64,000 nucleotides of DNA from Halobaculum sp. MBLA0147 (lineage in GTDB: Archaea > Halobacteriota > Halobacteria > Halobacteriales > Haloferacaceae), in contig NZ_JBGKAD010000001.1 of the NCBI RefSeq assembly GCF_041361345.1, forward strand, positions 2,046,001 through 2,110,000, read 5' to 3'. The stretch's first letter is position 1; every line of letters begins with the position of its first letter. A program made the translations under genes and the position numbers. Positions 54,932 to 56,318 of the stretch are shown piece by piece. The notes below the pieces were generated by a model. That model searched no databases. It saw nothing but the letters and a program-made list of their open reading frames with translations, and was not told where the DNA came from.

Positions 54932-55423
54932 GTGTTCGAGATTCGGCCCTTCGAGCGCGGCGACGCCGCGGCAGTGTGGCGCGTCCACGAACGCGCCTTC
55001 CGCGCCTCGCCGCTCCCGTTCGTCGACGACCCGGCGCTGGATCGGGACCTCCGGAACCCGACGGCGCACTACCTGCCCGGCCCCGGCACGCTGGTTGTGG
55101 GTGTCCACCGCGAGTCCGCGTCCGCCGACGGCGAACTCGTCGCCCTCGGCGCCTCCGAACCGGTCGACGCGACGACAGTGGAGTTTCGGCGCCTCCGCGT
55201 CGACCCCGACTACCAGCGCCGCGGCTACGCGAGTCGGCTGCTCGACCGGCTCCGGGCTCGTGCCGTCGCGGACGGCTTCGAGACGGTGGTGTTGTCGACC
55301 GACGAGCGACTGCGGGCGGCGCGTGCGCTGTACGAGTCCCGCGGCTACGAACGGGTCGCGACGGACTGCAGCGAGCGGTGTGGGATCGAGTACCGGCGGT
55401 CGCTCGATCCAGAAAAGAGGTGA
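54932..55423 (+). CDS. GNAT-family N-acetyltransferase
   Basis: A 163-residue GNAT from a GTG at 54932. FEIRPFERGDAAAVWRVHERAF is the first beta-alpha unit; RRLRVDPDYQRRGYASRLLDRL near 95 is the acetyl-CoA-binding motif A, and ALYESRGYERV near 140 is motif B. Acceptor unknown. The following 352-base gap (55424-55775) contains the CRISPR relic. Confidence 0.85.
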   Translation: MFEIRPFERGDAAAVWRVHERAFRASPLPFVDDPALDRDLRNPTAHYLPGPGTLVVGVHRESASADGELVALGASEPVDATTVEFRRLRVDPDYQRRGYASRLLDRLRARAVADGFETVVLSTDERLRAARALYESRGYERVATDCSERCGIEYRRSLDPEKR

Positions 55424-55442: not shown

Positions 55443-55676
55443 CAGGGGTACCTCACAGGTGGTTCGGCTGAACCCTGCTCGGCGGCGGATCGTACCGCCA
55501 CCCGCCGAGACTGCCTCACCTCACAACGGGTTCGTCTGGAACGTTGAGGTGCCGCCGATGGTGGTCGTCACGCACCGTGCTTCAACCTCACAACGGGTTC
55601 GTCTGCAACCTGACGACGGTGATGGTCGTCTCGGACGGTGTACTCGCTTCAACCCCACGACGGGTTCGTCTGTGAC
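55443..55676 (-). CRISPR. Relic CRISPR array: four repeats, three spacers, no cas genes
   Basis: Four 31-base repeats lie at 55443-55473 (strongly degenerate), 55512-55542, 55579-55609 and 55646-55676. On the minus strand they share CAGACGAACCCGT and end GGTTGAAGC, close to the haloarchaeal type I-B repeat (CAGACGAACCC...GAAGC). The last three copies are spaced exactly 67 bases apart, giving 36-base spacers; the first spacer is about 38. The most decayed copy is at the end away from the AT-rich presumed leader at 55677-55740, as expected of an old trailer end. The two 36-base spacers share a short GATGGT..CGTC segment. Confidence 0.75.
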
Positions 55677-55717
55677 AGTGCTAGTTCAAGCACCTGGTAT
55701 GTTGTTGTATTTCGCAT

Positions 55718-55726
55718 ATTATAAAT
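55718..55726 (-). promoter_or_regulatory. TATA-like box in presumed CRISPR leader
   Basis: ATTTATAAT on the minus strand lies in an AT-rich stretch (about 55690-55730) next to the best leader-side position of the array; transcription would begin near 55693, just before the first repeat at 55676. Confidence 0.5.
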
Positions 55727-55775
55727 GTTTCGACTACACGCAATCATCCCCACAACCCCCGGGGGTCGACGGAGA

Positions 55776-56318
55776 TCACCAGGGTTCGTCCTTCAGTCCG
55801 AGCCAGTAGGCGACGACGTTCGTCCCGACGTGGAGCGCGGGCGTGACGACGGCGACGACCAGCAGTCGTCCGGGCGTGAACGTCGTCGCGAACCACCCGC
55901 CGGCGAGCAGCGCCGCACACGCCAGCGCGCCGACGACGAAGTCGAGTTGGTCGAGCCCGGGGAAGGCGGCCCCGCGCTCGCGGCCGCTGCGACGTTTGAG
56001 GAACGACGCCGCCACGTCGCCGGCCATCGCACCCGCCGCGAGCCCGACGGCGGCCGCCAGCGGGAACCGCGGGAGCGCGACGCCGACCGTGTCGCCGACC
56101 GGCCCCGCGACGCCGTTGGCGACCAGCGCGAGGGCGACACCCGCGAGGGTGCCGACGAGAGTGCCGCGCCACGTCTTCCCGTCGCCGAGCAGCCGGCGGT
56201 CCCCCATCGTCCGCCCGCCGTCGATGGGGCGGCCGCCACCCGCGAGGACGGCCGCGTTGTTCGGGACGTACGCGGGTAACATCGCCCACAGCGCACCGGC
56301 GACGACGGAGACGAGCAT
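55776..56318 (-). CDS. carS: CDP-archaeol synthase
   Basis: A 180-residue membrane enzyme (CTP:2,3-di-O-geranylgeranylglycerol-1-phosphate cytidylyltransferase) of archaeal phospholipid synthesis. It has five hydrophobic segments and the family signatures [15 protein letters not shown] near 15, [12 protein letters not shown] near 47 and [14 protein letters not shown] near 118, which carry the Mg/CTP site residues. It lies 165 bases from geranylgeranyl reductase on the same strand, pairing two lipid steps. Confidence 0.94.

Follow-up and report, generated by a model that had tools for sequence, protein, structure and literature searches.

What is a short CRISPR array for when no cas genes accompany it: is it a working barrier or junk? 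For cas-less arrays directed against cas genes this question was raised in 2010 (Touchon and Rocha, 2010; PMC2886076), and no test of one view against the other was found in the open-access literature consulted. The locus described here offers an unusually clean case, with two guides on one site, two alleles, a seed-mismatched resident cas6 and a congener with a matching system. It belongs to a haloarchaeal assembly of 4.29 Mb (97% complete) and lies in the window, the stretch of 64,000 nucleotides that was analysed (C1:2046001-2110000). On the minus strand, the mini-array occupies 55676 to 55445 and follows carS downstream, which encodes a CDP-archaeol synthase (55776 to 56318, minus strand; PF01864, E 4e-43). 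On the other side, a GNAT acetyltransferase gene is convergent (54932 to 55423, plus strand; PF00583, E 5e-14). At 30 carS loci, the own one and those of 29 other genomes, 420 nt just downstream were read, with 8 more carS matches left out. No array was present in the 29 other genomes, and conservation of the array is therefore unsupported.

The array comprises three repeats of 31 nt each, R1 (GTCACAGACGAACCCGTCGTGGGGTTGAAGC, 55646 to 55676), R2 (GTTGCAGACGAACCCGTTGTGAGGTTGAAGC, 55579 to 55609) and R3 with an altered 3' end (AGGTGAGGCA, 55512 to 55542), all on the minus strand and spaced 67 and 67 nt from start to start. They enclose two spacers of 36 nt, spacer 1 (55610 to 55645) and spacer 2 (55543 to 55578). 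A gapped scan of both window strands with the genome consensus repeat gave scores of 25, 27 and 24 for R1 to R3; the best other place reached 11. The Rfam family CRISPR-DR24 detects R1 (E 3.5e-4, 34.6 bits) and R2 (E 8.1e-4, 33.1 bits), both slightly below the gathering score of 35. R1 and R2 show 4 differences and retain the 8-nt 3' end GTTGAAGC; a crRNA handle of 8 nt, GUUGAAGC, is predicted for the array. The altered end of R3, AGGTGAGGCAG, also occurs in the last repeat of another array of this genome, array B, which suggests a common descent of both trailer ends. A 36-nt interval (55476 to 55511), either a third spacer or trailer, follows R3. It holds a strong hairpin (z-score -2.2), and the search for its target gave nothing convincing, only one weak plasmid match, from Gordonia. 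The badly decayed R4 (55445 to 55473) scores 8 against the consensus, a value reached by about 0.1% of the minus-strand positions. Its 15-nt stretch GTTCAGCCGAACCAC recurs in the congener G002, in a degenerate repeat located ahead of cas6. This 15-mer is 3 changes away from the canonical repeat and was found, among 168 loci, solely in copies of the R4 place and of the G002 place. Because of this common stretch, a post hoc find, R4 is probably a true relic. A match of the R4 pattern in a viral contig of 28% G+C without CRISPR repeats was taken as chance. Decay grows toward the trailer end. The preliminary description had given three good repeats and one decayed repeat of 31 nt at 67-nt spacing, 36-nt spacers and the strongest decay at the trailer end, and this is confirmed.

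The 99 nt between the carS stop codon and R1 (55677 to 55775, minus strand) form the leader. It aligns with the leaders of three arrays elsewhere on contig C1, named A, B and C, and of relatives; leader and first repeat of array A match it with an E-value of 2.3e-12. A TATA-like box, TTTATAATAT (55716 to 55727, minus strand), is located about 40 nt before R1 with CGAAACA in front, and may act as a promoter. Array A (C1:1936.6 kb, 10 spacers), array B (C1:1999 kb, 10 spacers) and array C (C1:294.9 kb, 9 spacers) have the same repeat as the array here. On the shared repeat of these three sister arrays and the homologous leader, the array is read as a genuine haloarchaeal type I-B mini-array.

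Three cas families, cas1, cas6 and I-B cas7, were searched genome-wide, and all were located outside the window. The sole cas1 found is part of a type I-D locus at C1:738-747 kb, which has repeats of its own. The sole cas6 (PF01881) and the sole I-B cas7 found are on contig C2. They are part of a run cas6-cas8b-cas7-cas5-cas3 (C2:174953-182423, minus strand), which adjoins a large array of more than 100 repeats with a related but different repeat. The earlier statements on a haloarchaeal type I-B-like repeat and an AT-rich leader were borne out by the same-genome comparison of repeats and by the leader homology. The stated lack of cas genes holds for the three families searched, and a service by Cas proteins from elsewhere in the genome is possible, given the I-B Cascade set on C2. 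For the resident I-B set, no cas1 was found besides that of the type I-D locus on C1; adaptation-less I-B sets that resemble it have been described from proviruses (PMC12596717). A type I-D array (L022:9610-12070) changes along its length from one repeat variant to another, GTCGCAGCGGCCCAGG... to GTCGCGACGGGGAGG..., as if repeats had been replaced blockwise.

The preliminary description overlooked the content of the spacers. Judged from their sequence, both target cas6. A single site of 42 nt in type I-B cas6 (EYTVRDDHHRRHLN) is the source of both, with strand and reading frame shared. Spacer 1 encodes EYTVRDDHHRRQ, and spacer 2, 6 nt further on, encodes TVRDDHHRRHLN. In blastn searches of 72,556 plasmid records, the top matches of both spacers were cas6. 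Haloarchaeal cas6 accounted for 6 of the best 20 of 36 matches of spacer 1 (best E 6e-4) and for 5 of the best 20 of 69 matches of spacer 2 (best E 2e-4); the remaining matches listed were scattered genes with weaker E-values. The best ungapped matches to cas6 genes covered 31/36 and 32/36 positions. At the protein level, the two spacers matched Cas6 with scores of 64 and 70. Arrays A, B, C, C2 and I-D of the genome supplied 178 control spacers, trimmed to 36 nt where longer, for a comparison with 18 Cas protein sequences. Their maximum was 34, and none came near any of the 18. An exact protospacer was not found for spacer 1, nor a source within 3 mismatches in 390 other genomes. Phage records yielded no halovirus among the matches listed for both spacers (best 20 of 62 and best 20 of 58; best E 0.4 and 0.03). 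Exact 20-mers of the spacers had 0 matches in viral contigs, and a search for cas6 relatives in phage records and viral contigs found none. Of the two sources considered beforehand, haloviruses and plasmids, plasmids gave cas6, and haloviruses were absent among the matches listed. A pattern of repeat end plus cas6 motif (sense orientation, one motif) was detected in 392 haloarchaeal genomes only in the array here, and 0 times in viral contigs. The single genome-contig match of this pattern, from an uncultured bacterium in apparently coding DNA with no repeats around, was rejected.

The two spacers are identical at 22 of 30 positions in a 6-nt offset. All 8 differences are at third codon positions, so the spacers derive from two different cas6 alleles. 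The site was compared in 33 cas6 genes, namely 30 loci of the best matches to the resident Cas6 and 3 plasmid genes; the set leans toward the resident Cas6, since it was drawn from its best matches (93 of 293 genomes matched). In all 33 genes the two sites share strand and frame at a distance of 6 nt, and TTC precedes the spacer-1 site in 26. Origin of the array and cas6 target are well supported.

The targeted cas6 can be assigned to a repeat type. The Cas6 motif encoded in the spacers is YTV, the array repeat falls into the A[CT]G group, and the resident cas6 on C2 is YQV with CAG repeats. The surroundings of cas6 were inspected in 26 genomes, the own one among them. CAG-A[CT]G repeats accompanied YTV in 13 of these and YRV in 2, and CAG-NAG repeats accompanied Y[QE]V in 6. 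The other 5 were unreadable (motif not found or stretch without repeats). The Cas6 motif tracks the repeat core in all 21 readable genomes with 0 exceptions; these genomes are related and thus not independent. The motif is a possible determinant of repeat recognition. In congener G002, a cas6 encoding EYTVRDDHHRRHLN is preceded by a leader and by GTTCCAGATGAACCCGTTGTGGGGTTGAAGC in ten copies, two of them variants, and the main repeat form there is the repeat of array C. Because YTV goes with A[CT]G repeats and G002 shows the same pairing, the array targets the cas6 of its own repeat's system. A YTV-type system matching the array repeat was not found in the genome here, the sole cas6 being of the other flavour. 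Directly upstream of cas6 in G002 (G002:C246, L163, reverse complement about 2475-2567), two degenerate repeats surround a short spacer-like stretch. The pair looks like a CreA/CreR-type guide module, and its first repeat resembles R4.

The preferred explanation, with a probability of roughly 60%, is a cas-less I-B anti-cas6 array through which an incoming cognate system would be turned on its own cas6. It may serve as a trap for incoming CRISPR systems instead of viruses. In this proposal, the leader promoter would transcribe the array. Processing and carriage of the guides would be performed by Cas6 and Cascade, either of the resident C2 I-B set or of an incoming cognate system. Guides reaching the incoming cas6 would then destroy or silence it. 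A plasmid that brings in a cognate I-B system would arm the trap against itself, while the resident cas6 would escape by its mismatched seed.

Rules for functional guides are available from Haloferax, with the PAMs TTC, ACT, TAA, TAT, TAG and CAC and a seed of 10 nt in which position 6 is free (PMC4390866). Under these rules, spacer 1 meets a PAM and no more than one seed mismatch in 16 of the 33 cas6 genes, 2 of which match its seed perfectly. For spacer 2, only 2 of the 33 have a PAM and one seed mismatch, which counts against the anti-cas6 reading. The cas6 of G002 matches spacer 1 at 29/36 positions with TTC in front and spacer 2 at 31/36 with TAC in front, each with 1 seed mismatch.

One cas6 gene contains 31 TTC sites on both strands, or 87 sites for the six PAMs; random uptake of two spacers from one site is therefore unlikely. 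The same site could have been used twice by primed uptake from a second related plasmid, or by selection for multi-allele guides. It is conceivable, though rather unlikely, that the array is a dedicated two-guide trap, in which spacer uptake ended and which was kept as its two allele-derived guides cover one site. The idea that the guides target the most conserved part of cas6 found no support. The site windows rank 205 and 84 of 691 (28 of the 33 genes; 5 dropped for a stop in the aligned stretch), so conservation gives selection for allele coverage no aid. Spacer preservation was also weighed against repeat decay, with 1 amino-acid change in 24 codons on one side and the 4 differences between R1 and R2 on the other, numbers too small to show selection.

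An ordinary dying array is the rival that survives best, and is doubtful rather than improbable. The array would be the leftover memory of two I-B-carrying plasmids and without present function; both spacers would match cas6 as this is what such plasmids carry, with chance or primed uptake added. Archaeal spacers often match cas genes, which has been ascribed to plasmid-borne cas loci (PMC3285040). The decay of R3 and R4, the loss of one arm of the leader's inverted repeat and the missing exact protospacer (spacer 1 searched) point in the same direction. Against this rival, random uptake would hardly yield two matches from two alleles within one 42-nt site, and the other 178 spacers of the genome lack a cas match. 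The preliminary description had spoken of a relic, an orphan or dying array. The orphan state holds. On decay the signs diverge: a leader arm is lost, yet the TATA-like box and the 3' end of R1 and R2 are kept.

Very unlikely is a self-regulating guide, whose crRNAs would repress Cas expression by partial pairing with the resident cas6, much as CreR acts on cas promoters. CreR guides do occur in type I systems (PMC12737573), and the two resident cas6 sites, preceded by TTC and TAT, match the spacers at 24/36 and 26/36 positions. The resident gene is nevertheless among the poorest matches of the 33, with 4 seed mismatches to spacer 1 and 3 to spacer 2. These mismatches fit a tolerance of the resident gene by an anti-cas6 array and count against self-regulation. 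The matched sequence is moreover coding sequence and not a cas promoter. A chance or 67-bp tandem repeat instead of a CRISPR array is practically refuted: the kinship of the spacers, a degree reached by only 2 of 9870 pairs from 141 other spacers and in part the sign by which the preliminary description would have recognized such a repeat, runs through two cas6 coding sequences, 6 nt out of register with the repeats and with third-position differences only, and the repeat family recurs in three other arrays with homologous leaders and an Rfam match.

The anti-cas6 array is of a known kind; a doubling on one cas6 site from two alleles, in a genome with a resident I-B set of another flavour, was not found in the open-access literature searched. 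Touchon and Rocha (2010; PMC2886076) suggested that short cas-less arrays directed against cas genes of their own subtype bar incoming systems. E. coli CRISPR3 (type I-F), named an "anti-CRISPR" array, is likewise short and cas-less, and its spacers match own-subtype cas genes absent from the genome, namely cas1, cas3 and csy2; it is conserved across strains (PMC2886076). In the array here, too, the spacers match a cas gene of the repeats' subtype, and the matched gene was not found in the 97% complete assembly, where the one cas6 detected has the other flavour. Unlike CRISPR3, it is of type I-B, has both spacers on one cas6 site and coexists with an I-B set of the other flavour. A residual array of Haloquadratum walsbyi HBSQ001 is also haloarchaeal, cas-less and leader-bearing, and 3 of its 5 spacers match the cas block of another strain (PMC3119063). 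As reported there, its matches concern several sites in the cas block within the same species, and Cas is not resident, unlike here (PMC3119063). Brodt et al. (2011; PMC3285040), who surveyed spacers singly, also recognized cas genes as frequent targets in archaea, whereas the present array places two spacers on one site. The open-access literature searched yielded no description of a pair of spacers on a single cas6 site. CreA and CreR resemble the array in their few diverged repeats, own promoter and tie to a type I Cascade, and are described as targeting a toxin promoter or a cas promoter by partial pairing (PMC8501985, PMC9458426, PMC12737573). Unlike these, the array matches cas6 coding sequence and is on another contig than the I-B cas genes. 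Above the level of short seed-only matches, no match of the guides to the own cas promoter was found, the best ones in the resident locus being inside the cas6 coding sequence and seed-mismatched.

If the rather unlikely reading as a dedicated two-guide trap is true, every I-B system that enters and can use the array repeat would destroy or silence the cas6 it brings. Chromosomes would in this way control the CRISPR flavour allowed on their plasmids, and the resident C2 system would persist since its cas6 diverged at the seed.

The leader family has further features in common. The leader of array A contains an inverted repeat, GTTTCCGTCGACCC ... GGGTCGACGGAAAC, which B and C have in closely similar form; in the leader here the left arm is kept and the right arm lost. 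In all four arrays, A, B, C and the present one, a short hairpin of differing letters abuts the first repeat (GTGCCC/GGGCAC, ATGGCC/GGCCAT, GTGCT/AGCAC). In the present array, leader alignment and fold place it as GTGCT-TGAACT-AGCAC (55678 to 55693, minus strand), touching R1, where the fold of a 48-nt piece has a z-score of only -1.2. The long inverted repeat and the junction hairpin are common to these haloarchaeal I-B leaders and those of relatives. With changing letters and a pairing that is often kept, the junction hairpin may play a part in spacer uptake. Another leader of the family, the fifth, is located at C1:2003819-2003934 (minus strand). Only one repeat, the decayed GTTCCAGACGGACCCGTCGTGAGACCGAGCC, and no array come after it, and it may represent a leftover solo leader or a guide gene with one repeat.
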